The translations under genes and the position numbers were made by a program. Shown here piece by piece: positions 221 through 64,000 of a stretch of DNA of 64,000 nt (the first letter of the stretch is position 1; every line of letters begins with the position of its first letter). A model generated the notes under the pieces. That model did not search any database. It was not told the origin of the DNA and saw only the letters and a program-made list of their open reading frames with translations. The DNA comes from Chamaelirium japonicum. Its lineage: Eukaryota > Streptophyta > Magnoliopsida > Liliales > Melanthiaceae. The stretch spans positions 47,756,999-47,820,998 of the forward strand of contig OX393552.1 in NCBI GenBank assembly GCA_947650365.1. Direction: 5' to 3'.

Positions 221-1065
221 AGGATACATTCAAGTGTATGAATTAGAATGGATCGTGCGAATGGATTAGAATGGATCGTATGAATGGATTAGAATGGATC
301 GTACGAATGGATTAGAATAGATCGTATGAATGGATTAGAATGGATCGTACGAATGGATTAGAATGGATCGTGCAAAAGAATTAGAATGGATCGTACAAAT
401 GAATTAGAATGGATCGTATGAATGGATTAGAATGGATCGTACGAATGGATTAGAATAGATCGTACGAATGAATTAGAATGGATCGTGCGAATGAATTAGA
501 ATGGATTGTACGAATGAATTAGAATGGATATATTCGTGCGAATGAATTAGAATGGATCTTACGAATGAATTAGAATGGATCGGACGAATTAATTAGAATG
601 GATCGTACGAATGAATTACAATGGATACATTCGAGCGAATGAATTAGAATGGATCGTTTGAATGCATTAGAATGGATACATTCGTGCGAATGAATTAGAA
701 TGGATCATACGAATTAATTAGAATGGATACATTTGTGCGAATGAATTTGAATGGATTGCACGAGTTGAATTAGAATGGATCGTATGAATGGATTAGAATG
801 GATCGTACGAATGAATTAGAATGGATCATACAAATGAATTAGAAAGGTTACATTCGTGAGAATGAATTAGAATGGATCGTGTGAATGAATTAGAATTGAT
901 CATACGAATGGATTAGAATGGATCGTACGAATGAATTAGAATAGATCGTGTGAATGAATTAGAATGGATCATACAAATGAATTAGAAAGGTTACATTCGT
1001 GAGAATGAATTAGAATGGATCGTACGAATGAATTAGAATGGATCATGCGAATGAATTTGAATGGA
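221..1065 (+). repeat. F-oriented satellite block, left edge of array
   Basis: The first recognisable monomer is a degraded 28 bp type (GGATACATTCAAGTGTATGAA), after which clean 23 bp monomers run in F orientation. Early copies mostly carry the GAATGGATTA end variant; later copies carry GAATGAATTA. Degeneracy concentrated at the very edge is usual for satellite margins. The block ends at a perfect GGATCC-centred palindrome. Confidence 0.9.
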
Positions 1066-1084
1066 TCCATTCAAATTCATTCGC
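1047..1084. repeat. perfect 38 bp palindrome at an F-to-R switch
   Basis: Nineteen-base arms (GCGAATGAATTTGAATGGA and its exact complement) meet without spacer at GGATCC, positions 1063-1068. Both arms contain the GAATTTGAATGG variant, so the two monomers flanking the switch are copies of one another read on opposite strands. Symmetry breaks at 1046/1085. Confidence 0.95.
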
Positions 1085-2639
1085 TCGAATGTATCCTTTG
1101 TAATTCATTTGTATGATCCATTCTAATTCATTCGTACGATCCATTATAATCCATTTATACGATCCATTCTAATCCATTCGTACGATCCATTCTAATTCAT
1201 TCGTATGAATGTATCCATTCTAATTTATTCGTACGATCTAGTCTAATTCGTTCGTACAATCCATTCTAATTCATTCGCACAAATGTATCCATTCAAATTC
1301 ATTCGTTCAAACCATTCTAATTAATTCGCACGATCCATTCTAATTCAGTCGTATGATCCATTCTAATTCGTTCGTACGATCCATTCTAATTCATTCGTAT
1401 GATCCATTCTAATTCATTCCTACGATCCATTCTAATTCATTCGTATGATCCATTCTAATTCATTCCTACAATCTATTCTAATTCATTCGCTCGAATGTAT
1501 CCATTCTAATTCATTCGTTCGATCCATTCTAATTCATTCGTACGATCCATTCGAATTCATTCGCTCGAATGTATCCATTCTAATTCATTCGTACGAACCA
1601 TTCTAATTCACTCGCATGAATGTAACCATTCTAATTCATTCGCACGATCCATTCTAATTCATTCATACGATCCATTCTAATTCATTCTCACAAATGTAAC
1701 CTTTCTAATTCATTTGTACGATCCATTCTAATTCATTCGTACAATCCATTCTAATTCATTCGTACGATCCATTCTAATTCATTCGCACAATCCATTCTAA
1801 TTCATTCGCACGAATGTATCCATTCTAATTCATTCGTACGATCCATTCTAATTTATTCGTACGATCCATTCTAATTCATTTGCATGGTCCATTAGTATGA
1901 TCCATTCTAATCCATTCGTACGATCCATTCTAATTCATTCGCACGAATGTATCCATTCTAATTCATTCGTACAATCCATTCTAATTCATTCGCACGATCC
2001 ATTTTAATTCATTCGTATGATCCATTCTAATTTATTCGTACGATCCATTCTAATTCGTTCGTACGATCCATTCTAATTCGTTCATACGATCCATTCTAAT
2101 TCATTCACATAATCCATTCTAATTCATTCGTATGATCCATTCTAACTCATTCGGATCCATTCGTACGATCCATTCTAATTCATTCGTATGATCCATTCGT
2201 ACGATCCATTCTAATTCATTCGTACAATGCGTTCAAATCCATTCGTACGATCCATTCTAATTCATTCGTATGATCTATTCTAATTCATTCGCACGAATGT
2301 ATCCATTCTAATTCATTTGCACGATCCATTCTAATTCATTCCTATGATCCATTCTAATTCATTCGTACGATCCATTCTAATTCATTTGCTCGAATGTATC
2401 CATTCTAATTCATTCGTACGATCCATTCTAATTCGTTCGTACGATCCATTCTAATTCGTTCGTACGATCCATTCTAATTCATTCGTATGATCCATTCTAA
2501 TGCATTCGTACGATCCATTCTAATTCATTCGTACGATCCATTCTAATTCATTCGTACGATCCATTCTAATTCATTCGTACGATCCATTCTAATTCATTCG
2601 CACGATCCATTCTAATTCATTTGTACGATCTAATTCTAA
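1066..2639 (-). repeat. R-oriented satellite block
   Basis: Tandem monomers read as the reverse complement (CCATTCTAATTC... on +). 23 bp units predominate, with 28 bp units (ATTCGCACGAATGTATCC or ATTCGCTCGAATGTATCC) scattered through. Near 2150-2250 phase is locally disturbed (CATTCGGATCCATTCG), showing small deletions. The block ends at the 14 bp palindrome ATTCTAATTAGAAT (2633-2646). Confidence 0.9.
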
Positions 2640-2830
2640 TTAGAATAGATACATTTGTGCGAATGAATTAGATTGCATCGTACGAATGAATTTGAATGCA
2701 TTCCAATTCATTCGTATGTTCTAATTCTAATTCATTCGCACTATCCATTCTAATTAGAAAGGTTACATTCGAGCGAATAAAATAGAATAGATCGTAGGAA
2801 TGAATTAGAATGGATCATATGAATGAATTA
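2390..2830. repeat. dispersed duplication, copy 1 (mate at 14020-14450)
   Basis: Contains a distinctive R-F-R-F run of tiny inverted islands: R to F at ATTCTAATTAGAAT (2633-2646), F to R at GAATGCATTC near 2695, then R to F at CTAATTAGAAAGG near 2750. The same series with the same variant bases recurs 11,634 bp downstream. Island lengths are about 55 bp, only two monomers each. Confidence 0.85.
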
Positions 2831-3453
2831 GAATGGATCGTGCGAATAAATTAGAATGAATCGTACGAATGCATTAGAATGGATCGTACGAACGAATTAG
2901 AATGGATCGTACGAACGAATTAGAATGGATCGTACGAATGAATTAGAATGGATACATTCGAGTGAATGAATTAGAATGGATCGTACGAATGAATTAGAAT
3001 GGATCATAGGAATTAATTAGAATGGATCGTGCAAATGAATTAGAATGGATACATTCGTGCGAATGAATTAGAATAGATCATACGAATGAATTAGAATGTA
3101 TCGTACGAATGGATTAGAATGCATTGTACGAATGAATTAGAATAGATCGTACGAATGGATCAAACGAATGAATTAGAATGGATCGTACGAATGGATCCGA
3201 ATGAGTTAGAATGGATCATACGAATGAAATAGAATGGATCGTACGAATGAATTAGAATGGATTGTGCGAATGAGTTAGAATGGATCGTATGAACGAATTA
3301 GAATGGATCGTACGAATGAATTAGAATGGATACATTTGTGCGAATGCATTAGAATGGATCATATGAAAGAATTAGAATGGATCGTACGAATGAATTAGAA
3401 TGGATCATATGAACGAATTAGAATGGATCGTACGAATGAATTAGAATGGATAC
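2750..3453 (+). repeat. F-oriented satellite block
   Basis: Opens with the GAAAGGTTACATTCG 28 bp subtype and continues as mixed 23/28 bp monomers. It includes one copy of the GAGCG/ATAGG/GCAAATG cassette (about 2890-3070). It switches to R where a 28 bp monomer (GGATACATTCG) runs into TACGATCC, inside the TCGTACGA-like core. Confidence 0.88.
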
Positions 3454-5379: not shown

Positions 5380-5395
5380 AATTAGAATGGATCGT
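5364..5395. repeat. 32 bp inverted repeat at an R-to-F switch
   Basis: Fifteen-base perfect arms (5364-5378 and 5381-5395; inner arm CCATTCTAAT / ATTAGAATGG) surround a 2 bp centre GA. The switch falls at the AATTA junction between adjacent monomers. Symmetry ends at 5363/5396. Confidence 0.93.
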
Positions 5396-6918: not shown

Positions 6919-8512
6919 GTACGATGCAATCTAATTCATTCGCACGATCTATTCTAATTCATTCGTACGATCCATTCTAATTCATTCGTATGATCCATTC
7001 TAATTTATTCGTTCAAATATATCCATTCTAATTTATTCGTACGATCCGTTCTAATTCATTCGCACGTACGATCCACTCTAATTCATTCGCACGAATGTAT
7101 CCATTCTAAATCATTTGCACGATCCATTCTAATTCATTCCTATGATCCATTCTAATTCATTCGTACGATCCATTCTAATTCATTCGTCCGATCCATTCAA
7201 ATTCATTCGTACGATGCAATATAATTCATTCGCACAAATGTATCTATTCTAATTCATTCGTACAATGCGTTCTAATCCATTCGTACGATCCATTCTAATC
7301 CATTCGTACGATCCATTCTAATTCATTCGTACGATCCATTCTAATTCATTCGTACGATCCATTCTAATTTATTTGCATGAATGTATCCATTCTAATTCAT
7401 TCGTACAATCCATTCTAATTCTTTCGCACGATCCATTCTAATTCATTCGTATGATCCATTCTAATTCATTCCTACGATCTATTCTAATTCATTCGCTCGA
7501 ATGTATCTATTCTAATTCATTCGTTCGATCCATTCTAATTCATTCGTACGATCCATTCAAATTCATTCGCATGATTCATTCTAATTCATTCGTACGATCC
7601 ATTCTAATTCATTCTCACGAATGTAACCTTTCTAATTCATTTGTATGATTCATTCTAATCTATTCGTACGATCCGTTCTAATCCATTCGTACGATCCATT
7701 CTAATCCATTCGTACGATCCATTCTAATTCATTCTCACAAATGTAACCTTTCTAATTCATTAGTACGATCCATTCTAATTCATTTGCACAAATGTATTCA
7801 TTCTAATTCATTCATACGATCCATTCTAATTCATTCGCACGATCCATTCTAATTCATTCGCAGGATCCATTCTAATTTATTCGTACGATCCATTCTAATT
7901 CATTCGCACGAATGTATTTATTCTAATGCATTCGTACGATCCATTCTAATTTATTCGTACGATCCATTCTAATCCATTCCTACGATCCATTCTAATTCAT
8001 TCATACGATCCATTCTAATTCATTCTCACAAATGTAACCTTTCTAATTCATTTGTACGATCCATTCTAATTCATTCGTACGATCCATTCTAAGCCATTCG
8101 TACGATCCATTCTAATCCATTCGTACGATCCATTCTAATTCATTCGCACGAATCTAACCATTCTAATTCATTCGTACGATCCATTCTAATTCATTCCAAC
8201 GATCCATTCTAATTCATTCGCACGAATGTATCCATTCTAATTCATTTGCACGATCCATTCTAATTCATTCCTATGATCCATTCTAATTAATTCGTACGAT
8301 CCATTCTAATTCATTCGCTCGAATGTATCCATTCTAATTCATTCGTACGATCCATTCTAATTCGTTCATAAGATCCATTCTAATTCGTTCGTACGATCCA
8401 TTCTAATTCGTTCGTACGATCCATTCTATCTCATTCGCACGATCCATTCTAATTCATTTGTACGATCCATTTTAATTCATTCGCATGATCCATTCTAATT
8501 CATTCGTATGAT
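6919..8512 (-). repeat. R-oriented satellite block
   Basis: Reverse-oriented monomers, mostly 23 bp. Carries one R copy of cassette K (about 7440-7660) and one R copy of the GAGCG/ATAGG cassette (about 8260-8420). The open frame at 7451-7648 lies in cassette K and is a by-product of repeat variants, not a gene. Confidence 0.9.
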
Positions 8513-10250
8513 ACATTCGTGCGAATGAGTTAGAATGGATCATACGAATGAATTAGAATGGATCGTACGAATGAATTAGAATGGATTGTGCGAATGAATT
8601 AGAATGGATACATTCGTGCGAATGACTTAGAATGGAATGTAAGAATGAATTAGAATGGATCGTACCAATGAATTAGAATGGATCCATTCGTACAAATGAA
8701 TTAGAATGGATCGTACGAATGAATTAGAATGGATCGTACGAATAGATTAGAACGCATTGTACGAATGAATTAGAATGGATCGTACGAATGGATTAGAATG
8801 GATCGTACGAATGAATTAGAATGGATCGTACGAATGAATTAGAATGGATACATTCGAGCGAATGAATTAGAATGGATCGTACGAATGAATTAGAATGGAT
8901 CATAGGAATGAATTAGAATGGATCGTGCAAATGAATTAGAATGGATACATTCGTGCAAATGAATTAGAATGGATCGTAGGAATGAATTAGAATGGATCGT
9001 ACGAATGAATTAGAATGGTTACATTCGTGCGAATGAATTAGAATGTATCGTACGAATGGATTAGAATGGATCATATGAATGGATTAGAATGGATCGTACG
9101 AATGAATTAGAATGGATCGTACAAATGAATTAGAAAGGTTACATTTGTGAGAATGAATTAGAATGGATCATACGAATGAATTAGAATGGACCGTACGAAT
9201 GGATTAGAATGGATCGTACGAATGAATTAGAATGGATCGTACGAATGCATTAGAATGGATACATTCGTGTGAATGAATTAGAATGAATCGTACGAATGAA
9301 TTAGAATGGATCGTGCGAATAAATTAGAATGGATCGTATGAATGAATTAGAATGGATCGTGCGAATGAATTAGAATGGATCGTACGAATGAATTAGAATG
9401 GATACATTTGTGCGAATGAATTAGAATGGATCGTACGAATGAATTAGAATGGATTGTACGAATGTATTAGAATAGATAGATTCGTGCGAATGAATTTGAA
9501 TGAATCGTACGAATGAATTAGAATGGATCGTATGAATGAATTAGAATGGATTATGCGAATGAATTAGAATGGATCGTAAGAATGAATTAGAATGGATCCA
9601 TTCGTGCGAATGAATTAGAATGAATCGTACGAATGAATTAGAATGGATCGTAGGAATGAATGAGAATGGATCGTACGAATGAATTAGAATGGTTACATTC
9701 GTGCGAATGAATTAGAATGGATCATAGGAATGAATTAGAATGGATACATTTGAGTGAATGAATTAGAATAGATCGTAGGAATTAATTAGAATGGATCATA
9801 CGAATGAATTAGAATGGATTGTGCGAATGAATTAGAATGGATTGTACGAATGAATTAGAATGGATACATTCGTGCGAATGAATTAAAATGGATCGTACGA
9901 ATGAATTAGAATGGATCGTGCGAATGAATTAGAATAGTTCGTAGGAATGAATTAGAATGGATCATACGAATGAATTAGAATGGATCGTACGAACGAATTA
10001 GAATGGATCGTACGAACGAATTAGAATGGATGATACGAATGAATTAGAATGGATCGTACGAATGAATTAGAATGGATACATTCGTGCGAATGAATTAGAA
10101 TGGATCGTACGAATGAATTAGACTGGATCGTACGAATAAATTAGAATGGATACATTCATACGAATGAATTAGAATGGATCGTACGAATGAATTATAATGG
10201 ATCGTGCGAATGAATTAGAATGGATCGTACGAATGAATTAGAATGGATCG
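8513..10250 (+). repeat. F-oriented satellite block
   Basis: About 1.7 kb of F monomers. Includes the complete CATTCGAGCG-to-GGTTACATTCG cassette at about 8846-9045 and a GAACGCATTG marker monomer near 8750. Ends at GAATGGATC-GT-GATCCATTC (12 bp arms, 10238-10263), where the block flips to R. Confidence 0.9.
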
Positions 10251-10263
10251 TGATCCATTCTAA
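10238..10263. repeat. 26 bp inverted repeat at an F-to-R switch
   Basis: Twelve-base arms (TTAGAATGGATC and complement) flank a 2 bp GT centre. The switch occurs within GGATCGT, the first half of the monomer, so half a monomer is missing compared with a full F/R pair. Confidence 0.92.
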
Positions 10264-19390: not shown

Positions 19391-19434
19391 GAATGCATTA
19401 GAATGGATCGTACGAATAAATTAGAATGAATCGT
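19391..19434 (+). repeat. two-monomer F island
   Basis: About 44 bases in F orientation (GAATGCATTAGAATGG through GAATGAATCGTACG) inside R sequence. It shows that an inverted insert can be as small as two monomers. Confidence 0.85.
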
Positions 19435-19724
19435 ACGATCCATTCTAATTCATTCGTCTGATCCATTCTAATTCATTTGTACGATCCATTCTAATTCATT
19501 CGCACGAATGTATCCATTCTAATTCATTCGTACGATCCATTCTAATTCATTCGTATGATCAATTCTAATTCATTCACACGATCCATTCTAATTCATTCGT
19601 ACGATCCATTCTAATTCATTCGCACGAATGTATCCATTCTAATTCATTCGTACGATCCGTTCTAATTCATTCGTACGATCCATTCTAATTCATTCGCACG
19701 AATGTATCCATTCTAATTCATTCA
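19435..19724 (-). repeat. R-oriented satellite block
   Basis: About twelve reverse-oriented monomers alternating 23 and 28 bp (ATTCGCACGAATG every few units). Exits at ATTCATTCATGCGAATGAAT. Confidence 0.86.
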
Positions 19725-29240: not shown

Positions 29241-30352
29241 ATTAGAATGGATACATTTGTACGAATAAATTAGAATGGATTGTACGAATGAATTAGAATG
29301 GATACATTCTTGCGAATAAATTAGAATGGATCATATATTTGTGCAAATAAATTAGAATGGATCATACGAATGAATTAGAATGAATTGTACTAATGAATTA
29401 GAATGGATATATTCGAGCGAATGAATTAGAATGGATCGTACGAATGAATTAGAATGGATCATAGGAATGAATTAGAATAGATCGTGCAAATAAATTAGAA
29501 TGGATACATTCGTGCAAATGAATTAGAATGGATCGTAGGAATGAATTAGAATGGATCATACGAATGAATTAGAATGGTTACATTCGTGCGAATGAATTAG
29601 AATGGATCGTATGACTGGATTAGAATAGATCGTACGAATGAATTAGAATGGATCGTACAAATGAATTAGAAAGGTTACATTTGTGAGAATGGATTAGAAT
29701 GGATCGTACGAATGGATTAGAATGGATCGTACGAATGAATTAGAATGGATCGTACGAATGCATTAGAATGGATACATTCGTGCGAATGAATTAGAATGGA
29801 TTGTACGAATGAATTAGAATGGATCGTGCGAATGAATTAGAATGGATCGTACGAATGAATTAGAATGGATCGTGCGAATGAATTAGAATGGATCGTACGA
29901 ATGAATTAGAATGGATACATTGGTGCGAATGAATTAGAATGGATCGTACGAATGAATTAGAATGGATCGTACGAATGAATTAGAATGGATCGTGCGAATG
30001 ATTTAGAATGGATCGTACGAATGAATTAGAATGGATACATTTGTGCGAATGAGTTAGAATGGATCATACGAATGAATTAGAATGGATCGTATGAATGAAT
30101 TAGAATGGATCATACGAATGAATTAGAATGGATCGTGCGAATGAATTAGAATGGATTGTACGAATGAATTAGAATGGATACATTCGAGCGAATGAATTAG
30201 AATAGATCGTAGGAATGAATTAGAATGGATCATACGAATGAATTAGAATGGATCATGCGAATGAATTAGAATGGATTGTACGAATGAATTAGAATGGATA
30301 CATTCGTGCGAATGAATTAGAATGGATCAGACGAATGAATTAGAATGGATCG
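29241..30352 (+). repeat. F-oriented satellite block
   Basis: F monomers with the GAGCG/ATAGG/GCAAAT/GGTTACATTCG cassette at about 29405-29600 and repeated CATTCGAGCG ... GTAGG series near 30180. One rearranged monomer near 29335 (GGATCATATATTTGTGC) fuses 23 and 28 bp types. Confidence 0.87.
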
Positions 30353-30916
30353 TACGATTCTTTCTAATTCATTCATACGATCCATTCTAATACATTCGTA
30401 CGATCCATTCTAATTTATTCGTACGATCCATTCTAACTCATTCGGTGGATCCATTCTAATTCATTCGTACGATCCATTCTAATTCATTCGCACAATCCAT
30501 TCTAATTTATTCGTACGATCCATTCTAGTTCATTCATACGATCTATTCTAATTCATTCGCACGAATGTAACCATTCTAATTCATTCGTACGATTCATTCT
30601 AATTCATTCGTATAAGCTATTCTAATTCATTTGTACGATCCATTCTAATTCATTCGTACGATCTATTCTAATTCATTCGTACGATCCATTCTAATTCATT
30701 CGCACAAATGTATCCATTCTAATTCATTCGTACGATCCATTCTAATTCATTCGCACGATCCATTCTAATTCATTCGTACGATCCATTCAAATTCATTCGT
30801 ACGATCCATTCTAATTCATTCGTACGATCCATTCTAATTCATTCGTACGATCCATTCTAATTCATTCGCACGATCCATTCTAATCTATTTGTACGATCCA
30901 TTCTAATTCATTCATA
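30353..30916 (-). repeat. R-oriented block leading into the large HOR
   Basis: Shares the GTATAAGCTATTC and ATTCGGTGGATCC variants with the R blocks inside the large HOR (near 37190 and 32150). It is therefore probably a fourth, partial relative of that unit. Confidence 0.82.
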
Positions 30917-33900: not shown

Positions 33901-36211
33901 TCGTATGAATGGATTAGAATGGATCGTACGAATGGAATAGAATGGATCGTACGAATGAATTAGAAAGGTTACATTTGTGAGAATGAATTAGAATGGATCA
34001 TACGAATGAATTAGAATGGATTGTGCGAATGAATTAGAATGGATCGTATGAGTGAATAAGAATGGATCGTACGAATGAATTAGAATGGATCGTGCGAATG
34101 AATTAGAATGAATCGTACGAATGCATTAGAATGGATCGTACGAATGAATTAGAATGAATCGTATGATCCATTCTAATTTATTCGTCCGATCCATTCTAAT
34201 TCATTCGTGCGAATGAATTAGAATGGATACATTCGAGCGAATGAATTAGAACGCATTGTACGAATGAATTAGAATGGATCATGTGAATGAATTAAAATGG
34301 ATCGTACAAATGAATTAGAATGGATCGTGCGAATGAATTAGAATGGATCGTACGAACGAATTAGAATGGATCGTACGAACAAATTAGAATGGATCATACG
34401 AACGAATTATTCATACAAATGGATTAGAATGGATCGTACTAATTCATTAGAATGGATCGTACAATGCGTTCTAATCCATTCGCATGATCGTACGATCCAT
34501 TCTAATTTATTCATACGATCCATTCTAATTCATTCGCACGATCCATTCTAATTTATTCGTATGATCCATTCTAATTCATTCGCATGAATATATCTATTCT
34601 AATTCATTCGTATGATCCATTCTAATTTATTCACACGATCTATTCTAATTCATTCGTACGATCCATTCTAATTCATTCGTACGATCCATTCTAATTCATT
34701 CGCACGAATGTATCATACGAATGAATTAGAATGGATCATGCGAATGAATTAAAATGGATCGTACAAATGAATTAGAATGGATCGTACGAATGAATTAGAA
34801 TAAATCATGCGAATAAATTAGAATGGATCATACGAATGAATTAGAATAGATATATTCATGCGAATGAACTAGAATGGATCGTATGAATGAATTAGAATGG
34901 ATCGTACGAATGAATTAGAATGGATACATTCGTACGATCATTCGTATGATCCATTCTAATTCATTCGTATGATCCATTCTAATTCATTCGCACGATCTAG
35001 TCTAATTCATTCGTACGATCCATTCTAATTCACTCGCACGATCCATTCTAATTCATTCGTATGATCCATTCTAATTCATTCGCACGAATGTAACCATTCT
35101 AATTCATTCGTACGATCCATTCAAATTCATTCATACGATCCTATCTAATTCATTCGCACGATCCATTCTAATTCATTCGTATAATCCATTCTAATTCATT
35201 CCTACGATCTATTCTATTTCATTCGCTCGAATGTAACCTTTCTAATTAGAATGGAACGTGCGAATGAATTAGAATGGATCATAGGAATGAATTAGAATGG
35301 ATCGTGCAAATAAATTAGAATGCATTCGCACAAATGAATTAGAAAGGTTACATTCGTACAATCTAATTCATTTGAATGAATATATCCATTCTAATTCATT
35401 CGTACGATCCGTTCTAATTCATTCGTACGATCCATTCTAATTCGTTCATACGATCCATTCTAATTGATTCGTATGATCCATTCTAATTCATTCGTATGAT
35501 CCATTCTAATTCATTCGCACGATCCATTCTAATTCATTCGTACGATCCATTCTAATTCATTCGCACGAATGTAACCATTCTAATTCATTCGTACGATCCA
35601 TTCTAATTTATTCCTACGATCCATTCTAATTCATTCGCACAAATGTATCTATTCTAATTCATTCGTACGATCCATTCTAATTCATTTGTACAATCCATTC
35701 TAATTCTTTCTCACAAATGTAACCTTTCAAATTCATTCGTACGATGCAATCTAATTCATTCGCACAAATGTATCTATTCTAATTCATTCGTACAATACGT
35801 TCTAATCTATTCATACGATCCATTATAATCCATTCGTACGATCCATTCTAATTCATTCGCACGAATGTAACCATTCTAATTCATACGCTCGATCCATTCT
35901 AATTTATTCGTACGATCCATTCTAATTCATTCCTACGACCTATTCTAATTCATACGCTCGAATGTATCCATTCTAATTCATTCGTTCGATCCATTCTAAT
36001 TCATTCGTACGATCCATTCTAATTCATTCGCACGATCCATTCTAATCCATTCGTACGATCCATTCTAATCCATTCGTACGATCCATTCTAATCTATTCGT
36101 ATGATCCATTCTAATTCAATCGCACGAATGTAACCAGAATGTATCCATTCTAATTCATTCGTACGATCCATTCTAATTCGTTCGTACGATCCATTCTAAT
36201 TCATTCATATG

Positions 36212-36229
36212 ATCCATTCTAGAATGGAT
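36212..36229. repeat. 18 bp perfect palindrome at an R-to-F switch
   Basis: ATCCATTCT / AGAATGGAT without spacer, centred on CTAG. It opens a 104 bp F island whose other end is the 50 bp palindrome. The same opener occurs near 43655, 59752 and 61303; the copy near 52835 is degraded (CTATTTTAGAATGG). Confidence 0.93.
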
Positions 36230-36299
36230 AGTACGAATGAATTAGAATGGATCGTACGAATGGATTAGAATGGATCGTACGAATGGATTAGAACGCATT

Positions 36300-36349
36300 G
36301 TACGAATGAATTAGAATGGATCGTACGATCCATTCTAATTCATTCGTAC
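36300..36349. repeat. perfect 50 bp spacer-free palindrome at an F-to-R switch (copy 1)
   Basis: Twenty-five-base arms meet at TCGTACGA (36321-36328). I compared each pair outward and all 25 match; the first mismatch is 36299/36350. The arms comprise one full monomer plus two bases. TCGTACGA is the palindromic core of the ordinary 23 bp monomer, so the switch loses no sequence there. Confidence 0.96.
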
Positions 36350-36949
36350 GATCCATTCTAATCCATTCGTACGATCCATTCTAATTCATTCGTATGATTC
36401 ATTCTAATTCATTCTCACAAATGTAACCTTTCTAATTCATTTGTACGATCTATTCTAATTCATTCGTACGATCCATTCTAATCCATTCGTATGATCCATT
36501 CTAATCCATTCGTACGATCCATTCTAATTCATTCATTCAATCCATTCTAATTCATTCGTACGATCCATTATAAATCATTCGTATGATCCATTCTAATTCA
36601 TTCCTAAGATCCATTCTAATTCATTCGCACGAATGTATCCATTCTAATTCATTCGTACGATCCATTCTAATTCATTCGTACGATCCATTCTAATTCATTC
36701 GTACAAATGAATTAGAATGGATCGTATGAATGAATAAGAATGGATCGTACGAATGAATTAGAATGGATCGTGCGAATGAATTAGAATGAATCGTACGAAT
36801 GAATTAGAATGGATACATTCGTGCGAATGAATTAGAATGGATCGTACGAATGGATTAGAATGGATCGTTTCAATGGATTAGAATGGATCGTACGAATGAA
36901 TAAGAAATGATTGTACAAATGAATTAGAAAGGTTACATTTGTGAGAATG

Positions 36950-36973
36950 AATTAGAATGGATCCATTCTAATT
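36950..36973. repeat. 24 bp perfect palindrome at an F-to-R switch
   Basis: AATTAGAATGGA and its complement joined at GGATCC (36959-36964). Identical switches are found at 44359-44382 and 53566-53589 in the other large HOR copies. Confidence 0.94.
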
Positions 36974-39900
36974 TATTCATATAATCCATTCTAATTCATT
37001 CGTTCGATCCAATCTAATTCATTCGTACGATCCATTCTAATTCATTCGTACGATCCATTCTAATTCATTCGCACGATCCATTTTAATTTATTCGTACGAA
37101 CTATTCTAATTCATTCATACGATCTATTCTAATTCATTCGCACGAATGTAACCATTCTAATTCATTCGTACGATTCATTCTAATTCATTCGTATAAGCTA
37201 TTCTAATTCATTCGTACAATCCATTCTAAGTCATTCGTACGATCCATTCTAATTCATTCGTACGATCAATTCTAATTCATTCGCACCAATGTATCCATTC
37301 TAATTCATTCGTACGATCCATTCTAAATCATTCGCACGATCCATTCTAATTCATTCGTACGATCCATTCTAATTCATTCGCACGATCCATTCTAATCCAT
37401 TCGTACGATCCATTCTAATTCATTCGTACAAATGAATTAGAATGGATCGTATGAATGAATAAGAATGTATCGTACGAATGAATTCGAATGGATCGTGCGA
37501 ATGAATTAGAATGAATCGTACGAATGCATTAGAATCGATACATTCGTGCGAATGAATTAGAATGGATCGTACGAATGAATTAGAATGGATCATACAAATG
37601 AATTACAAGGGTTACATTCGTGAGAATTAATTAGAATGGATCGTACGAATGAATTAGAATGGATCGTACGAATGAATTAGAATGGATACATTCAAGCGAA
37701 TGAATTAGAATGGATCGTACGAACCAATTAGAATGGATCAAAGGAATGAATTAGAATGGATCGTGCAAATGAATTAGAATTTATCGTGCGAATGAATTAG
37801 AATGAATCGTACGAATGAATTAGAACGGATTCGTGCGAATGAATTAGAATGGATCGTACGAATGAATTAGAATGGATCATACAAATGAATTTGAAAGGTT
37901 ACATTCGTGAGAATGAATTAGAATGAATCGTACGAATGAATTAGAATGGATCATGCGAATGAATTTGAATGGATCGTACGAATGAATTAGAATTGATCAA
38001 ACTAATGAATTAGATTGGATACATTCGAGCGAATGAATTAGAATAGATCATAGGAATGAATTAGAATGGTTACATTCGTTCGATCCATTCTAATTCATTC
38101 GCACAATCCATTCTAATTCATTCATACGATCCATTCTAATTCATTCGTTCGATCCATTGTAATTCATTCATACGATCCATTCTAATTCATTCGTACGATC
38201 CATTCTAATTCATTCGCACTATCCATTCTAATTTATTCATACGATCCATTCTAATTCATTCGCATGATCCATTCTAATTCATTCGTACGATCCATTCTAA
38301 TTCATTCGTATGATCCATTCTAATTCATTCGCATGATCCATTCTAATCCATTTGTACGATCCATTCTAATTCATTCATACAAATGAATTAGAATGGATCG
38401 TATGAATGAATAAGAATAGATCGTACGAATGAATTAGAATGGATCGTGCGAATGAATTAGAATGAATCGTACGAATGCATTAGAATGGATACATTCGTGC
38501 GAATGAATTAGAATGGATCGTACGAATAAATTAAAATGGATCATACAAATGAATTAGAAAGGTTACATTCGTGAGAATGAATTAGAATGGATCGTACGAA
38601 TGAATTAGAATGGATCGTACGAATGAATTAGAATGGATACATTCAAGCGAATGAATTAGAATGGATCATACGAACGAATTAGAATGGATCATAGGCATGA
38701 ATTAGAATGGATCATGCAAATGAATTAGAATTTATCGTGCGAATGAATTAGAATGAATCGTACGAATGAATTAGAACGGATTCGTGCGAATGAATTAGAA
38801 TGGATCGTACGAATGAATTAGAATGGATCATACAAATGAATTAGAAAGGTTACATTCGTGAGAATGAATTAGAATGGATCGTACGAATGAATTAGAATGG
38901 ATCATGCGAATGAATTTGAATGGATCGTACGAATGAATTAGAATGGATCAAACTAATGAATTAGAATGGATACATTCAAACGAATGAATGAGAATAGATC
39001 GTAGGAATGAATTAGAATGGTTACTTTCGTTCGATCCATTATAATTCATTCGCATAATCCATTCTAATTCATTCATACGATCCTTTCTAATTCATTCGTT
39101 CGATCCATTTTAATTCATTCATACGATCCATTCTAATTCATTCGTACGATCCATTCTAATTCATTCGCACGATCCATTCTAATTTATTCGTACGATCCAT
39201 TCTAATTCATTCGTAATATCTATTCTAATTCATTCGCATGATCCATTCTAATTGATTTGTACGATCCATTCTAATTCATTCGTACAATCCATTCAAATTC
39301 ATTCGTACGATGCAATCTAATTCATTCGTATGATCCATTCTAATCCATTCGTACGATCCATTCTAATCCATTCGTATGATCCATTCTAATTCATTCGTAC
39401 GATCCATTCTAATTCATTCGCACAAATATATCCATTCTAATTTATATGATCAATTCTAATTCGTTCATACGATCCATTCTAATTCATTCGTACGAATGTA
39501 TCCATTCTAATTCATTTGTATGATCCATTCTAATTCATTCGTACGAATGTATCCATTCTAATTCATTTGTATGATCCATTCTAATTCATTCGTACGATTC
39601 ATTCTAATCCATTCGGTGGATCCATTCTAATTCATTCGTACGATCCATTCTAATTCATTCGCACGATCCATTCTAATTTATTCGTACGATCCATTCTAAT
39701 TCATTCGTACGATCTATTCTAATTCATTCGCATGATCCATTCTAATTCATTCCTACGATCTATTCTAATTCATTCGCTCGAACAAATGAATTAGAATGGA
39801 TCATAGGAATGAATTAGAATGGATCGTGCAAATGAATTAGAATGGATACATTCGAGCGAATGAATTAGAATAGATCTTAGGAATGAATTAGAATGGATCA

Positions 39901-42900
39901 TACGAATGAATTAGAATGGATCGTGCGAATGAATTAGAATGGATTGTACGAATGAATTAGAATGGATACATTCGTGCGAATAAATTAGAATGGATCGGAC
40001 GAATGAATTAGTATGGATCGTGCAAATGAATTAGAATGGATCGTACGAATGAATTAGAATGGATCGTGCGAATGAATTAGAATTGATCATACGAATGAAT
40101 TAGAATGGATCGTACGAATGAATTAGAATGGATCGTACGAATAAATTAGAATGGATCGTGCGAATGAATTAGAATGGATCGTATGAATGGATTAGAATGG
40201 ATCCACCGAATGAGTTAGAATGGATAATACGAATGAATTAGAATGGATCGTACGAATGATTTAGAATGGATACATTCGTGCGAATGAATTACAATGGATC
40301 GTACGAATGAATTAGACTGGATCGTACGAATAAATTAGAATGGATACATTCATACGAATAAATTAGAATGGATCGTACGAATGTATTAGAATTGATCGTA
40401 TGAATGAATTAGAATGGATCGTACGAATGGATTAGAATGGATCGTACGAATGAATTAGAATGGATCATACAAATGAATTAGAAAGGTTACATTCGTGAGA
40501 ACGAATTAGAATGGATCGTGCGAATGAATTAGAATGGATCATGTGAATGAATTAGAATGGATCGTACGAATGAATTAGAATGGATCGTGCGAATGAATTA
40601 GAATGGATCGTACGAATGAATTAGAATGGATGCACTGAATGAGTTAGAATGGATCATACGAATGAATTAGAATGGATTGTACGAATGGATTAGAATGGAT
40701 CGTACGAATGAATTAGAATGGATCGTACGAATAGATTAAAATGGATTGTACGAATGAATTAGAAAGTATACATTCGTACGATCCATTCTAATTCATTCTC
40801 ACAAATGTATCCATTCTAATCCATTCGTACGATCCATTCTAATTCATTCGTACGATCCATTCTAATTCATTCGCACAAATGTATCCATTTTAATTCATTT
40901 GCACGATCCATTCTAATTCATTCCTATGATCCATTCTAATCCATTCGTACGATCCATTCTAATTCATTCGTACGATCCTTTCTAATTCATTCGCACGATC
41001 CATTCTAATTCGTTCGTATGATCCTTTCTAATTTATTCGTATGATACATTCGTGAGAATGAATTAGAATGGATCGTACGAATAAATTAGAATGGATACAT
41101 TTATGCGAATGAATTAGAATGGATCGTACAAATGAATTAGAATGGATCGTACGAATGAATTAGAATGGATCATGCGAATGAATTAGAATGGCTTGTACGA
41201 ATGAATTAGAATGGATACATTTGTGCGAATGAATTAGAATGGATCAGGCGAATGAATTAGAATGGATCGTACGAATGGATTAGAATGGATCGTACGAACG
41301 AATTAGAATGGATCGTACGAACGAATTAGAATGGTTACATTCGTGCGAATCAATTTGAATGGATCGTATGAATGGATTAGAATAGATCGTACGAATGGAT
41401 TAGAATGGATCGGACGAATGAATTAGAAAGGTTACATTTGTGAGAATGAATTAGAATGGATCATACGAATGAATTAGAATGGATTGTGCGAATGAATTAG
41501 AATGGATCGTATGAGTGAATAAGAATGGATCGTACGAATGAATTAGAATGGATCGTGCGAATGAATTAGAATGAATCGTACGAATGCATTAGAATGGATC
41601 GTACGAATGAATTAGAATGAATCGTATGATCCATTCTAATTTATTCGTCCGATCCATTCTAATTCATTCGTGCGAATGAATTAGAATGGATACATTCGAG
41701 CGAATGAATTAGAACGCATTGTACGAATGAATTAGAATGGATCATGTGAATGAATTAAAATGGATCGTACAAATGAATTAGAAGGGATCGTGCGAATGAA
41801 TTAGAATGGATCGTACGAACGAATTAGAATGGATCGTACGAACAAATTAGAATGGATCGTACGAACGAATTATTCATACAAATGGATTAGAATGGATCGT
41901 ACTAATTCATTAGAATGGATCATACAATGCGTTCTAATCCATTCGCATGATCGTACGATCCATTCTAATTTATTCATACGATCCATTCTAATTCATTCGC
42001 ACGATCCATTCTAATTTATTCGTACGATCCATTCTAATTCATTCGCATGAATATATCTATTCTAATTTATTCGTATGATCCATTCTAATTTATTCACACG
42101 ATCTATTCTAATTCATTCATACGATCCATTCTAATTTATTCGTACGATCCATTCTAATTCATTCGCACGAATGTATCATACGAATGAATTAGAATGGATC
42201 ATGCGAATGAATTAAAATGGATCGTACAAATGAATTAGAATGGATCGTACGAATAAATTAGAATAAATCATGCGAATAAATTAGAATGGATCATACGAAT
42301 GAATTAGAATAGATATATTCATGCGAATGAACTAGAATGGATCATATGAATGAATTAGAATGGATCGTACGAATGAATTAGAATGGATACATTCGTACGA
42401 TCATTCGTATGATCCATTCTAATTCATTTGTATGATCCATTCTAATTCATTCGCACGATCTAGTCTAATTCATTCGTACGATCCATTCTAATTCACTCGC
42501 ACGATCCATTCTAATTCATTCGTACGATCCATTCTAATTCATTCGCACGAATGTAACCATTCTAATTCATTCGTACGATCTATTCAAATTCATCCATACG
42601 ATCCATTCTAATTCCTTCGCACGATCCATTCTAATTCATTCGTATGATCCATTCTAATTCATTCCTACGATCTATTCTATTTCATTCGCTCGAATGTAAC
42701 CTTTCTAATTAGAATGGAACGTGCGAATGAATTAGAATGGATCATAGGAGAATTAGAATGCATTCGCACAAATAAATTAGAAAGGTTACATTCGTACAAT
42801 CTAATTCATTCGAATGAATATATCCATTCTAATTCATTCGTACGATCCTTTCTAATTCATTCGTACGATCCATTCTAATTCGTTCATACGATCCATTCTA

Positions 42901-43731: not shown

Positions 43732-43781
43732 GTACGAATGAATTAGAATGGATCGTACGATCCATTCTAATTCATTCGTAC
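43732..43781. repeat. perfect 50 bp palindrome (copy 2)
   Basis: Positional counterpart of 36300-36349 in the second large HOR, with identical arms and centre at 43756/43757. Confidence 0.95.
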
Positions 43782-45900
43782 GATCCATTCTAATCCATTC
43801 ATACGATCCATTCTAATTCATTCGTATGATCCATTCTAATTCATTCTCACAAATGTAACCTTTCTAATTCATTTGTACGATCCATTCTAATTCATTCGTA
43901 CGATCCATTCTAATCCATTCGTATGATCCATTCTAATCCATTCGTACGATCCATTCTAATTCATTCGTTCGATCCATTCTAATTCATTCGTACGATCCAT
44001 TATAAATCATTCGTATGATCCATTCTAATTCATTCCTAAGATCCATTCTAATTCATTCGCACGAATGTATCCATTCTAATTCATTCGTACGATCCATTCT
44101 AATTCATTCGTACAAATGAATTAGAATGGATCGTATGAATGAATAAGAATGGATCGTACGAATGAATTAGAATAGATCGTGCGAATGAATTAGAATGAAT
44201 CGTACGAATGAATTAGAATGGATACATTCGTGCGAATGAATTAGAATGGATCGTACGAATGGATTAGAATGGATCGTACTAATGGATTAGAATGGATCGT
44301 ACGAATGAATAAGAAATGATCGTACAAATGAATTAGAAACGTTACATTTGTGAGAATGAATTAGAATGGATCCATTCTAATTTATTCATACAATCCATTC
44401 TAATTCATTCGTTCGATCCAATCTAATTCATTCGTACGATCCATTCTAATTCATTCATACGATCCATTCTAATTCATTCGCACGATCCATTCTAATTTAT
44501 TCGTACGATCTTTTCTAATTCATTCATACGATCTATTCTAATTCATTCGCACGAATGTAACCATTCTAATTCATTCGTACGATTCATTCTAATTCATTCG
44601 TATAAGCTATTCTAATTCATTCGTACAATCCATTCTAAGTCATTCGTACGATCCATTCTAATTCATTCGTACGATCCATTCTAATTCATTCGCACCAATG
44701 TATCCATTTTAATTCATTCGTACGATCCATTCTAATTCATTCGCACGATCCATTCTAATTCATTCGTACGATCCATTCTAATTCATTCGTACGATCCATT
44801 CTAATTCATTCGCACGATCCATTCTAATCCATTCGTACGATCCATTCTAATTCATTCGTACAAATGAATTAGAATGGGTCGTATGAATGAATAAGAATGT
44901 ATCGTACGAATGAATTCGAAAGGATCGTGCGAATGAATTAGAATTAATCGTACGAATGCATTAGAATCGATACATTCGTGCGAATGAATTAGAATGGATC
45001 GTACGAATGAATTAGAATGGATCATACAAATGAATTACAAAGGTTACATTCGTGAGAATGAATTAGAATGGATCGTACGAATGAATTAGAATGGATCGTA
45101 CGAATGAATTAGAATGGATACATTCAAGCGAATGAATTAGAATGGATCGTACGAACGAATTAGAATGGATCATAGGAATGAATTAGAATGGATCGTGCAA
45201 ATGAATTAGAATTTATCGTGCGAATGAATTAGAATGAATCGTACGAATGAATTAGAACGGATTCGTGCGAATGAATTAGAATGGATCGTACGAATGAATT
45301 AGAATGGATCATACAAATGAATTTGAAAGGTTACATTCGTGAGAATGAATTAGAATGAATCGTACGAATGAATTAGAATGGATCATGCGAATGAATTTGA
45401 ATGGATCGTACGAATGAATTAGAATGGATCAAACTAATGAATTAGAATGGATACATTCGAGCGAATGAATTAGAATAGATCGTAGGAATGAATTAGAATG
45501 GTTAGATTCGTTCGATCCATTCTAATTCATTCGCACAATCCATTCTAATTCATTCATACGATCCATTCTAATTCATTCGTTCGATCCATTCTAATTCATT
45601 CATACGATCCATTCTAATTCATTCGTACGATCCATTCTAATTCATTGACACGATCCATTCTAATTTATTCATACGATCCATTCTAATTCATTCGTACGAT
45701 CTATTCTAATTCATTCGCATGATTCATTCTAATTCATTCGTACGATCCATTCTAATTCATTTGTACAATCCATTCAAATTCATTCGTACGATGCAATCTA
45801 ATTTATTCGTATGATCCATTCTAATCCATTCGTACGATCCATTCTAATTCATTCGTATGATCCATTCTAATTCATTCGCACAAATATATCCATTCTAATT

Positions 45901-45984
45901 CATATAATCCATTCTAACTCATTCATACAATCCATTCTAATTCATATAATCCATTCTAACTCATTCATACAATCCATTCTAATT
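45901..45984 (-). repeat. 42 bp sub-repeat with 19 bp monomers
   Basis: CATATAATCCATTCTAACTC starts at 45901 and again at 45943, a 42 bp period made of one 23 bp and one 19 bp monomer. The 19-mer lacks four bases of ATTCGTATG. The same doubled structure is at about 55085-55168 in copy 3. P segments (near 31978, 39440 and 48615) have a single 19-mer only. Confidence 0.88.
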
Positions 45985-47850
45985 CATTCGTACGAATGTA
46001 TCCATTCTAATTCATTTGTACGATCAATTCTAATTCATTCGTACGATTCATTCTAATTCATTCGGTGGATCCATTCTAATTCATTCGTACGATCCATTCT
46101 AATTCATTCGCACGATCCATTCTAATTTATTCGTACGATCCATTCTAATTCATTCGTACGATCTATTCTAATAAATTCACAGGATCCATTCTAATTCATT
46201 CCTACGATCTATTCTAATTCATTCGCTCGAACGAATGAATTAGAATGGATCATAGGAATGAATTAGAATGGATCGTGCAAATGAATTAGAATGGATACAG
46301 TCGAGCGAATGAATTAGAATAGATCCTAGGAATGAATTAGAATGGATCATACGAATGAATTAGAACGGATCGTGCGAATGAATTAGAATGGATATTTCGA
46401 ATGAATTAGAATGGATACATTCGTGCGAATGAATTAGAATGGATCGGACGAATGAATTAGTATGGATCGTGCGAATGAATTAGAATGGATCGTACGAATG
46501 AATTAGAATGGATCGTGCGAATGAATTAGAATTGATCATACGAATGAATTAGAATGGATTGTACGAATGAATTAGAATCGATCGTACGAATAAATTAGAA
46601 TGGATCGTGCAAATGAATTAGAATGGATCGTACGAATGAATTAGAATGGATCCACCGAATGAGTTAGAATGGATAATGCGAATGAATTAGAATGGATCGT
46701 ACGAATGAATTAGAATGGATACATTCATGCGAATGAATTACAATGGATCGTACGAATGAATTAGACTGGAACGTACGAATAAATTAGAATGGATACATTC
46801 ATACGAATGAATTAGAATGGATCGTACGAATGTATTAGAATGGATCGTACGAATGGATTAGAATGGATCGTACGAATGGATTAGAATGGATCGTACGAAT
46901 GAATTAGAATGGATCATACAAATGAATTAGAAAGGTTACATTCGTGAGAATGAATTAGAATGGATCGTGCGAATGAATTAGAATGGATCGTACGAATGAA
47001 TTAGAATGGATCGTGCGAATGAATTAGAATGGATCGTACGAATGAATTAGAATGGATCCACCGAATGAGTTAGAATGGATCATACGAATGAATTAGAATG
47101 GATCGTACGAATGGATTAGAATGGATCGTACGAATGAATTAGAATGGATCGTACGAATGAATTAGAATGGATACATTCGTACGATCCATTCTAATTCATT
47201 CTCACAAATGTATCCATTCTAATCCATTCGTACGATCCATTCTAATTCATTCGTAAGATCCATTCTAATTCATTCGCACGAATGTATCTATTCTAATTCA
47301 TTTGCACGATCCATTCTAATTCATTCCTATGATCTATTCTAATCCATTCGTACGATCCATTCTAATTCATTCGTACGATCCTTCCTAATTCATTCGCACG
47401 GTCCATTCTAATTCGTTCGTATGATCCTTTCTAATTCATTCGTATGATACATTCGTGAGAATGAATTAGAATGGATCGTACGAATAAATTAGAATGGATA
47501 CATTTGTGCGAATGAATTAGAATGGATCGTACAAATGAATTAGAATAGATCGTACGAATGAATTATAATGGATCATGCGAATGAATTAGAATGGATTGTA
47601 CGAATGAATTAGAATGGATACATTTGTACGAATGAATTAGAATGGATCAGGCGAATGAATTAGAATGGATTGTACGAATGGATTAGAATGGATCGTACGA
47701 ACGAATTAGAATGGATCGTACGAACGAATTAGAATGGTTACATTCGTGCGAATCAATTTGAATGGATCGTATGAATGGATTAGAATGGATCGTACGAATG
47801 GATTAGAATGGATCGGACGAATGAATTAGAAAGGTTACATTTGTGAGAAT

Positions 47851-60836: not shown

Positions 60837-62380
60837 ACGATCCATTCTAATTCATTCCTACGATCCATTCTAATTCCTTCGCACGAATGTATCCATTCTA
60901 ATTCATTCGTACGATCCATTCTAATTCATTCTCACAAATGTAACCTTTCAAATTCATTCGTACGATGCAATCTAATTCATTCGCACAAATGTATCTATTC
61001 TAATTCATTCGTACAATGCGTTCTAATCCATTCATACGATCCATTCTAATCCATTCGTACGATCCATTCTAATTCATTCGCACGAATGTAACCATTCTAA
61101 TTCATACGCTCGATCCATTCTAATTCATTCGTACGATCCATTCTAATTCATTCCTATGATCTATTCTAATTCATACGCTCGAATGTATCCATTCTAATTC
61201 AATCACACGAATGTAACCAGAATGTATCCATTCTAATTCATTCGTACGATCCATTCTAATTCGTTCGTACGATCCATTCTAATTCATTCGTATGATCCAT
61301 TCTAGAATGGATAGTATGAATGAATTAGAATGGATCGTACGAATGGATTAGAATGGATCGTACGAATGGATTAGAACGCATTGTACGAATGAATTAGAAT
61401 GGATCGTACGATCCATTCTAATTCATTCGTACGATCCATTCTAATCCATTCGTACGATCCATTCTAATTCATTCGTATGATCCATTCTAATTCATTCTCA
61501 CAAATGTAACCTTTCTAATTCATTTGTACGATCCATTCTAATTCATTCGTACGATCCATTCTAATCCATTCGTATGATGCATTCTAATCCATTCGTACGA
61601 TCCATTCTAATTCATTCGCATGAATGTACCCATTCTAATTCATTCGTACGATCCATTCTAATTCATTCGCACGAATGTACCCATTCTAATTCATTCGTAC
61701 GATCCATTCTAATTCATTCCTACGATCCATTCTAATTCATTCGCACGAATGTATCCATTCTAATTCATTTGCACGATCCATTCTAATTCATTCCTATGAT
61801 CCATTCTAATTCATTTATACGATCCATTCTAATTCATTCGCTCGAATGTATCCATTCTAATTCATTCGTACGATCCATTCTAATTCGTTCAGACGATCCA
61901 TTCTAATTCATTTGTACGATCCATTTAAATTCAATCGTATGATCCATTCTAATTCATTCGCACAAATGTATCATACGAATAAATTAGAATGAATCATACA
62001 AATGAATTAGATGGATACATTCGAGCGAATGAAATAGAATGGATCGTACGAATGAATTAGAATGGATCGTACGAATGGATTAGAATGGATCGTACGAATG
62101 GATTAGAATGGATCGTACGAATGAATTGGAATGGATTGTACGAATGAATTAGAATAGATCGTGCGAATAAATTAGAATGGAGCGAATGAATTAGAATGGA
62201 TCGTACGAATGAATTAGAATGAATCATACGAATGAATTTGAATGGATCATACAAATGAATTAGAATACATCATGTGAATGTATCCATTCTAATTCATTCG
62301 TACGATCCATTCTAATTCATTCGTACGATCCATTCTAATTCATTCGCATGATCCATTCTAATTCATTCGTACGATCGATT
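60837..62380. repeat. 1.55 kb tandem unit, copy 2
   Basis: Follows copy 1 directly with the same strand map: F island 61304-61407, R to 61970, F to 62279, then R. CATCATGTGAATG at 62268 corresponds to CATCATCTGAATG at 60711. An extra 28+23 bp monomer pair lies near 61620-61680, and the F island is one monomer shorter. The open frame at 62057-62254 is an artefact. Confidence 0.9.
61383..61432. repeat. perfect 50 bp palindrome (copy 5)
   Basis: Counterpart in the second 1.55 kb unit, centre at 61407/61408, with all 25 pairs matching. Confidence 0.95.
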
Positions 62381-63027
62381 CTAATTCGTTCGCACGATCC
62401 ATTCTAATTCATTCGTACAATCCATTCTAATTCATTCGTACGATCCATTCTAACTCATTCGTACGATCCATTCTAATTCATTCGCACGATCCGTTCTAAT
62501 TCATTCCTATGATCCATTCTAATTCATTCGCACGAATGTATCCATTCTAATTCATTCGTATGATCCATTCTAATTCATTCGCATGATCCATTATAATTCA
62601 TTCGCACGAATATATCGATTCTAATTCATTCGTACGATCCATTCTAATTCGTTCGTACGATCCATTCTAATTCGTTCGTACGATCCATTCTAATTCGTTC
62701 GTACGATTTATTCTAATTCGTTCGTATGATCTATTCTAATTCATTCTCACGATCCATTCTAATTCATTTGTACGATCCATTTTAATTCATTCATATGATC
62801 CATTCTAATTCATTCGTACAATGCGTTCTAATTCATTCGCTCGAATGTATCCATTCTAATTCATTCGCACGAATGAATTAGAATGGATCGGACGAATAAA
62901 TTAGATTGGATCGTACGATTCATTCTAATTCATTTGTATGATCCATTCTAATGCATTCGTACGATTCATTCTAATTCATTCGCACGATCCATTCTAGTTC
63001 ATTCGTACGATCCATTCTTATTCATTC
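62381..63027. repeat. R block with partial segment G, copy 4 of 4
   Basis: R monomers to about 62867, a two-monomer F island 62868-62918 (GGATCGGACGAATAAATTAG), then R to 63027. The CATATCGATTC monomer near 62610 and the GTACAATGCGTTC marker near 62818 identify it as segment G. Confidence 0.83.
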
Positions 63028-64000
63028 GTACAAATGAATTAGAATGGATCGTATGAATGAATAAGAATGGATCGTACGAATGAATTAGAATGGATCGTGC
63101 GAATGAATTAGAATGAATCATACGAATGCATTAGAATGGATACATTCGTGCGAATGAATTAGAATGGATACATTCGAGCAAATGAATTAGAATGGATCAG
63201 AATGGATACATGCGTGCGAATAAATTAGAATGGATCGTACGAACGAATTAGAATGGATCGTACGAATGAATTAGAATGGATACATTCGAGCGAATGAATT
63301 AGAATGGATCGTACAAATGAATTAGAATGGATCATAGGAATGAATTAGAATGGATCATGCAAATGAATTAGAATGGATACATTCGTGCGAATGAATTAGA
63401 ATGGATTGTACGAATGGATCGTACGAATGAATTAGAATGGTTACATTCGTGCGAATGAATTAGAATGGATCGTACGAATGAATTAGAATGGCTCATGCGA
63501 ATGAATTAGAATTGATCATACGAATGAATTAGAATGGATCATACGAATCAATTAGAATGGATCGTATGAACGAATTAGAATGGATCGTACGAATGGATTA
63601 GAATGGATCGTACGAATGGATTAGAATGGATTGTACGAATGAATTAGAATGGATCGTGCGAATGAATTAGAATTGATCATACGAATAAATTAGAATGGAT
63701 CGTATGAATGAATTAGAATGAATCATATGAAAGAATTAGAATGGATCGTACGAATGAATTAGAATGGATATATTCATTCGAATGAATTAGATTGCATCAT
63801 ACGAATGAATTTGAATGGATTGTACGAATGAATTAGAATGGATCGTACGAATGAATTAGAATGGATCATGCGAATGAATTAGAATGGTTACATTCGTGCG
63901 AATGAATTAGAATGGATCGTAGGAATGAATTAGAATGGATCGTACGAATGAATTAGAATGGTTACATTCGTGCGATTGAATTAGAATGGATCATACGAAT
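63028..64000 (+). repeat. F-oriented satellite block running off the right edge
   Basis: About 1 kb of F monomers. Contains the GAACGAATTA / CATTCGAGCG / ATAGG / GCAAATG cassette at about 63236-63400 and the duplicate of 17490-17640 at about 63718-63830. The array is not terminated within the window. Confidence 0.9.

Follow-up and report, generated by a model that had tools for sequence, protein, structure and literature searches.

Orientation switches in a Chio satellite array: positions at short palindromic words and copying within larger units

A 64-kb stretch of chromosome 4 of Chionographis japonica (C4:47756999-47820998, in a 1.52-Gb assembly of 3253 contigs), referred to throughout as the window, is occupied almost entirely by one short tandem repeat whose blocks lie alternately on the two strands. 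The repeat is almost certainly Chio1/Chio2, the CENH3-carrying holocentromere satellite of this species. The strand alternation itself adds nothing new, as it has already been published; the additions made here are the tendency of the switches to lie at short palindromes in the repeat and the subsequent copying of these switches inside larger units. The best explanation as a whole, and probably the correct one, is an inherited mosaic that arose by inverted joining at palindromic words and was then amplified.

A centromeric satellite in two orientations

The array is described by a single feature:

222..64000, no single strand: Chio1/Chio2 satellite mosaic of 2669 monomers, 487 of them with ACATT; 58 forward and 57 reverse blocks, 114 switches

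Period analysis revealed a single 23-bp satellite throughout this interval, with the consensus GAATGAATTAGAATGGATCGTAC in one orientation and a base agreement of 94.2% with that consensus in the window. The monomer exists in two forms of 23 and 28 bp: the longer one carries the 5-bp insertion ACATT and is linked to a substitution of A to G, the G being present in 84% of the monomers with the insertion as opposed to 19% of those without it. The window holds 456 copies of the motif TTCGTACGA and 445 of its reverse complement; in the same check TCGTACGA, which would correspond to the published 8-bp dyad, was counted 909 times. These properties are those of Chio1 and Chio2, a centromere satellite whose two monomer forms, 23 and 28 bp long, are set apart by 5 bp and a single substitution (Kuo et al. 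2023, PMC10264360; summarized in the review PMC12295485). In the passages of the published accounts drawn on here, Chio is said to contain TTCGTACGA and an 8-bp dyad, and TTCGTACGA to be present also in Chama, the satellite of a sister species (PMC12722358). A mixture of forward and reverse arrays is likewise in print (PMC10264360), as is the wording 'frequently alternating orientation' (PMC12722358), and higher-order repeats (CL73) are mentioned for Chio (PMC10264360, PMC12722358). Nothing differs between the window and the published satellite in genome, monomer forms, TTCGTACGA or mixed orientation: this is therefore a known array with a known property. Judged by its sequence, the window belongs to one of the holocentromere units of chromosome 4; the binding of CENH3 is taken from the publication, where it is reported for Chio arrays in general (PMC10264360).

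Alternation was followed by matching monomers at a threshold of at least 16 of 23 positions, which yielded 1285 forward and 1269 reverse matches in the window when each strand was counted alone. The matches fall into 115 runs separated by 114 switches, and the same number of switches emerged from two hidden-Markov segmentations, one of them a two-strand model including the 28-bp form. A preliminary description of this DNA had put the number of switches at about 90–100: the alternation it reported is real throughout, and its count was mildly too low. The 115 blocks measure between 39 and 3268 bp (median 371, mean 558) and divide the window into 50.5% forward, 49.2% reverse and 0.35% non-satellite DNA. 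The reversal of GC skew with each block, claimed in the same description, was borne out across a 184-kb stretch (C4:47.717-47.901 Mb, window included). The mean skew of blocks of at least 100 bp is +0.47 in forward orientation (138 blocks, range 0.33 to 0.70) and -0.49 in reverse (135 blocks, range -0.66 to -0.38), so that its sign follows block orientation. This stretch contains 334 junctions. When its 168 kb of satellite were all turned to one orientation, the segmentation called no switches, and a shuffled window (one copy) was called 100% background. Chance or segmentation noise was considered as a source of the switches and is ruled out by the absence of false switches in the one-orientation control. 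Alternation extends past the window, with 54 junctions in 38 kb sampled on contigs C7, C11, C37, C78 and C253.

Switch positions and shared words

The shared word at a junction was defined as the longest stretch at the switch that reads identically on the two strands, judged by exact match to the consensus including the 28-bp form, and 1500 random-breakpoint joins of real blocks served as null. Junctions were taken from the window and from a 204-kb pool that includes it (359 junctions), 184 kb of which represent the one locus containing the window. The mean shared-word length is 3.66 bp, as against 0.76 in the control (28-bp form included). Words of at least 6 bp are present at 34 of the 114 window junctions, all inside CATTCGTACGAATG, and at 92 of the 359 in the pool, but at only 17 of the 1500 null joins. 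Among words of at least four letters, the commonest in the window are TCGTACGA (14 junctions), CATTCGTAC (8), CATTCGTACGA (6), CATTC (6), GATC (5) and AATT (5). The sampled junctions of the other five contigs, 25 of which also belong to the pool, harbour words of at least 6 bp in 6 of 54 cases and of at least 4 bp in 22 of 54, the null for the latter being 61 of 1500. When junctions are classed by their axis of symmetry, the axis coincides with the centre of CGTACG in 54 of 181 forward-to-reverse switches (null 2.9%) and in 70 of 180 reverse-to-forward switches (null 7.2%).

Because many switches are copies of one another, junctions were also collapsed into families by single linkage of 200-bp stretches, a procedure that depends on the threshold chosen and that left out one junction lying less than 100 bp from a sequence end. 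With one random member retained per family, words of at least 6 bp persist at 27 of 163 junctions (threshold 92%), 17 of 120 (90%), 5 of 67 (88%, p = 0.001) and 5 of 41 (86%). A local preference for joining at words that the two strands share is thus well supported. Neither the placing of switches at dyad words nor their counts or multi-kb inheritance appears in the passages of PMC10264360 and PMC12722358 drawn on. None of the titles and abstract openings listed in literature searches mentions palindrome-centred strand switches in a satellite; this is weak evidence of absence, no supplements and few subscription papers being within reach.

The perfect palindromes of the window lie close to junctions. 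There are 14 of at least 18 bp, every one of them within 15 bp of a junction, and the longest is the following:

36300..36349, no strand: 50-bp perfect palindrome, a forward-to-reverse switch centred on CGTACG; repeats centred near 43756, 52940 and 61407

These palindromes bear on the suggestion in the preliminary description that the DNA could extrude cruciforms, but at a length of 150 bp the arms agree at only about 77% of positions (199 junctions), and any long cruciform would therefore be an imperfect one.

Copying of switches within larger units

Of the window, 58% belongs to segments that are repeated within it in the same orientation (length 400 bp or more, identity 92% or more), and switches are carried along in these copies, which stand partly in tandem at distances of 7.5–9.2 kb. 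The segments concerned are:

30619..35320, + strand: macro-unit segment repeated at 38087-42782, 97.9% identity, 7.47 kb apart; 11 of 11 junctions common
32418..38376, + strand: macro-unit segment with a second copy at 49033-54992 (97.3%) at a distance of 16.6 kb; 15 of 16 junctions common
39881..42760, + strand: macro-unit segment with a second copy at 49033-51914 (98.7%) at a distance of 9.15 kb; 8 of 8 junctions common
44393..46932, + strand: macro-unit segment with a second copy at 53577-56116 (97.1%) at a distance of 9.18 kb; 3 of 3 junctions common, the second copy having one extra

At 92%, 101 of the 114 window switches have a copy in the 204-kb pool, and the window junctions form 44 families, three of which are also represented in the samples of C7 or C253. 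As the threshold is lowered through 90, 88 and 86%, the families are reduced to 29, 13 and 9 and the multi-copy junctions rise to 106, 112 and 113 of 114. The wider dispersal of a single junction was followed with a probe in a genome search:

1000..1300, + strand: forward-to-reverse junction of the GGATCC class, switch near 1067

All 40 scored places out of 2885 candidates, the window itself among them, match the whole or nearly the whole probe at 95–100%, and these 40 are distributed on C4, C7, C11 and smaller contigs in both strands.

Long copies are found in inverted orientation nearly as often as in direct orientation: 33 versus 34 at distances of 20–50 kb, 48 versus 48 at 50–100 kb and 17 versus 25 beyond 100 kb. 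Counted as copies of at least 450 bp, the figures are 38 inverted versus 63 direct at 30–80 kb and 28 versus 41 at 80–180 kb. Together with the common junctions, these proportions are as expected from the amplification of a ready-made mosaic accompanied by exchange in either orientation.

The recurrence of the same switches in diverged copies indicates that they are inherited, and speaks against assembly noise. Satellites are hard to assemble, and the present assembly consists of 3253 contigs, with only 12 of chromosome size among the first 20, which lends some substance to the idea that the switches are joins of separate single-orientation arrays. Yet a switch is encountered every ∼0.5 kb, far below the usual length of HiFi reads. 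The assembly was built from such reads (PMC10264360). Moreover, the 12 neighbouring loci L009-L020 are free of N, and identical switches are seen in copies diverged by 1–3% in the window and by up to 5% at 39 other scored places. An assembly artefact is therefore extremely unlikely, and the preliminary description's own misgiving, that switches might appear only at assembly joins, is not realized as far as the assembly tells.

The left end of the window and the neighbouring loci contain retroelement sequences. The satellite begins at 222, directly after the end of a solo long terminal repeat (LTR) at 221:

1..221, probably - strand: solo LTR of 1231 bp, right-hand end; TG...CA termini and a GGATA target-site duplication on both sides; the other 1010 bp are found upstream, at L012:8990-9999

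The strand is taken from piecewise minus-strand matches of 68–90% to the LTRs of another element, and the presence of a solo LTR inside the satellite suggests that recombination between LTRs took place within the centromere unit. The element used for comparison is a Ty3-type LTR retrotransposon of ∼11 kb that interrupts the satellite downstream of the window (L016:385 to L017:1407); its open frames of 838 and 1042 amino acids encode gag, reverse transcriptase, RNase H-like domains and integrase. The tail of the solo LTR (1-165) is a minisatellite with a period of 23 bp (GAGGGCGAGCTCCTTGCGAGCTG): this is the period of Chio, with no evident resemblance in sequence. Elsewhere in the assembly, matches to the full MatK_N profile without stops were recorded at 121 scored places, all of them on unplaced contigs (C288 and higher), which suggests that many unplaced contigs are plastid DNA. 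The plastid-type matK identifies the source as a plant, and its protein looks monocot-like; a search of a plasmid collection with the matK locus gave no match.

Origin of the switches and comparison with known systems

A specific route from monomer to mosaic can be outlined: palindrome- or microhomology-mediated inverted joining followed by amplification, a mechanism that is credible while falling a little short of probable. A broken or stalled DNA end would switch to the opposite strand, by joining or priming, at a word with the same reading on both strands, mainly TCGTACGA and the Chio2 extension CATTCGTRCGAATG, less often GATC or AATT. As such words are built into the monomer and the satellite register is kept, the join would be seamless. 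Tandem duplication, together with exchange in both possible orientations from one centromere unit to another, would then multiply pieces of several kilobases in which many switches were already present. The enzymology may be microhomology-mediated template switching or end joining, with the palindrome as the putative cause. A related and more tentative suggestion is that a strand-switch site is built into the centromeric repeat itself: the palindrome common to the centromere repeats of both sister species would act as recurrent microhomology for the reverse joining of array pieces. Chio2 itself may be a frozen micro-switch: ACATT yields CATTCGTGCGAATG, as though a few bases from the adjoining GAATG had been copied back.

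Several observations weigh against this route. An exact shared word against the consensus is lacking at 32 of the 114 window junctions and 94 of the 359 in the pool, a measure that misses decayed words, and other routes or later decay are needed for these switches. Axis classes away from CGTACG are raised only about twofold over the random-join control: forward-to-reverse class 22 (26.0% versus 13.7%) and class 9 (13.3% versus 6.1%), and reverse-to-forward class 6 (14.4% versus 8.3%). Of the 359 pool junctions, 352 have blocks touching no non-satellite DNA and were kept for a comparison of the flanking arms; at the 199 with both blocks of at least 150 bp, arm similarity is 77.1%, not above the 77.5% of controls. 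Local inverted matches are not enriched either (30 of 641 junction tests versus 43 of 850 tests at non-junction sites), and the source of most inverted pieces is consequently not seen. The palindrome alone is not sufficient: the 60-bp centromeric satellite Chama of the sister species Chamaelirium luteum, although it has TTCGTACGA in common with Chio, is described as consistently oriented over hundreds of kilobases (PMC12722358). Finally, few positions of the monomer are less conserved than those of CGTACG (67.5–92.5% consensus, the changes being mainly transitions at most of these positions); this speaks against selection acting on the dyad itself.

Part of the evidence would also suit inversion in place, in which breaks at two palindromic sites or sticky ends (GTAC, GATC) release a piece that is religated in reverse. 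This process predicts paired classes on one dyad, and CGTACG does show forward-to-reverse class 17 and reverse-to-forward class 19. It also predicts about equal numbers of both junction types, as seen, and agrees with the near-parity of inverted and direct long copies at larger distances. The excess of direct over inverted pairs of at least 450 bp counts against it, as does the absence of any clean case among the 91 collinear gap pairs tested, a test that reaches only recent events within 204 kb. An inverted middle gave the better match in 53 of these pairs. In the 25 of the 53 that were listed, its identity was 0.68–0.79, save for two pairs at 0.93–0.95 that are read as a macro-unit bounded by inverted repeats; the other 28 are lower in the difference between inverted and direct matches. 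In-place inversion is thus an unlikely source of the alternation, albeit the most serious competitor.

A second alternative holds that most switches are fold-backs, generated by a nearby inverted template switch or by closed forks of the kind postulated in origin-dependent inverted-repeat amplification (ODIRA). A few switch events do look like fold-backs. Seven local inverted duplications (at least 450 bp, spacer below 1 kb) with an arm identity of 90–97% were detected, a lower bound, since at least two more are contained in a listing of self-copies (7799-9377 and 18268-20585). Examples are:

1900..3451, no strand: local inverted duplication, arms 1900-2577 and 2774-3451 (91.9%), spacer of 196 bp with three switches
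29596..30884, no strand: local inverted duplication, arms 29596-30128 and 30362-30884 (90.1%), sole spacer switch at 30353 (TCGTACGA), 9 bp from one arm
7799..9377, no strand: local inverted duplication, arms 7799-8518 and 8653-9377 (93.5%), switch at 8516

About one duplication with so short a spacer is expected from the rate at 12–180 kb (Poisson p about 8e-5). In all five spacers with a single switch, that switch lies 1–34 bp from one arm (a post hoc comparison, Fisher p about 0.001), the pattern of a template switch back to the opposite strand some 0.1–0.7 kb away. However, the rate of inverted pairs per 1000 kb^2 is 38 under 1 kb, 8–13 at 1–12 kb and 5–6 far away; the higher rate at 1–12 kb raises the expectation to about two and weakens the excess. 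In addition, fold-backs concern a few percent of junctions, the arms being generally unlike and local inverted matches not enriched. That fold-backs made most of the switches is accordingly improbable.

Selection might maintain the alternation if inverted blocks or dyads aid CENH3 loading or chromatin folding: non-B DNA and dyads have been proposed to favour CENH3 (PMC12722358), and macro-dyads recur in Tribolium satellites. Against this, Chama arrays, which run one way, also serve as centromere DNA in the sister species, block lengths are as irregular as described above, and conservation is no higher at the dyad positions than elsewhere in the monomer; maintenance by selection is very improbable. 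The two CpG sites in the CGTAC/G part show changes of the CG-to-TG/CA type at 8–19% per position, and conservation is accordingly lower in the dyad than in the AATTAGAATG part. CpG methylation is present on Chio (PMC10264360), and the decay of CGTACG would fit that of methylated CpG better than strong selection.

Even less can be said for the view that the alternation exists for the production of double-stranded RNA (dsRNA) or small RNAs that silence the array. RNA spanning a junction is predicted to fold strongly, with a mean of -238 kcal/mol per 400 nt across junctions against -69 kcal/mol in single-orientation stretches (40 of each). The potential for self-complementary RNA that had been proposed at the outset is therefore real. 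The published data on transcription and methylation lean against dsRNA-forming transcripts: CENH3 chromatin and the transcriptome signal are negatively correlated (r = -0.50), CHH methylation on Chio repeats is low and similar to that of genes, and the term 'small RNA' is absent from the main text (PMC10264360). Silencing as the reason for the alternation is most improbable.

How satellite arrays break, flip and spread is an open question for holocentromeres, for which hairpins, breaks and ectopic exchange at a shared motif have been proposed (Kuo et al. 2025, PMC12722358). If the repeat does contain a strand-switch site of its own, the scrambling of orientation would be a mutational by-product that marks the repair pathway at work in holocentromere arrays and would be readable from sequencing reads alone. 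The register of the junctions offers a direct test, in which switches in single HiFi reads are compared with palindrome positions.

Known systems resemble the Chio array to different degrees. Matching inverted arms, the signature of fold-back or ODIRA, are not a general property of the junctions and are confined to the local inverted duplications described above. Systems that make inverted junctions at short pre-existing inverted repeats would likewise produce matching arms at birth, and here only a handful of junctions display them. A parallel is provided by the satellites TmSat1 and TmSat2 of Tribolium madens, which form macro-dyads with orientation changes at conserved inversion sites and hairpin potential in putative (peri)centromeres; in the parts of this account drawn on, such arrays are said to be documented only in Tribolium, and Chionographis is unmentioned (PMC13081366). 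Compared by description only, the Tribolium arrays consist mostly of two subarrays of several kilobases that meet, with repeats derived from a ∼110-bp element, whereas the Chio window, 64 kb of a 23-bp repeat, is divided into 115 irregular blocks (median 371 bp) and does not show the two-subarray arrangement. Conserved inversion sites are common to both, as 101 of 114 Chio switches recur, but they belong to 44 families rather than to a few. The two kinds of array are alike in nature and unlike in scale and regularity.

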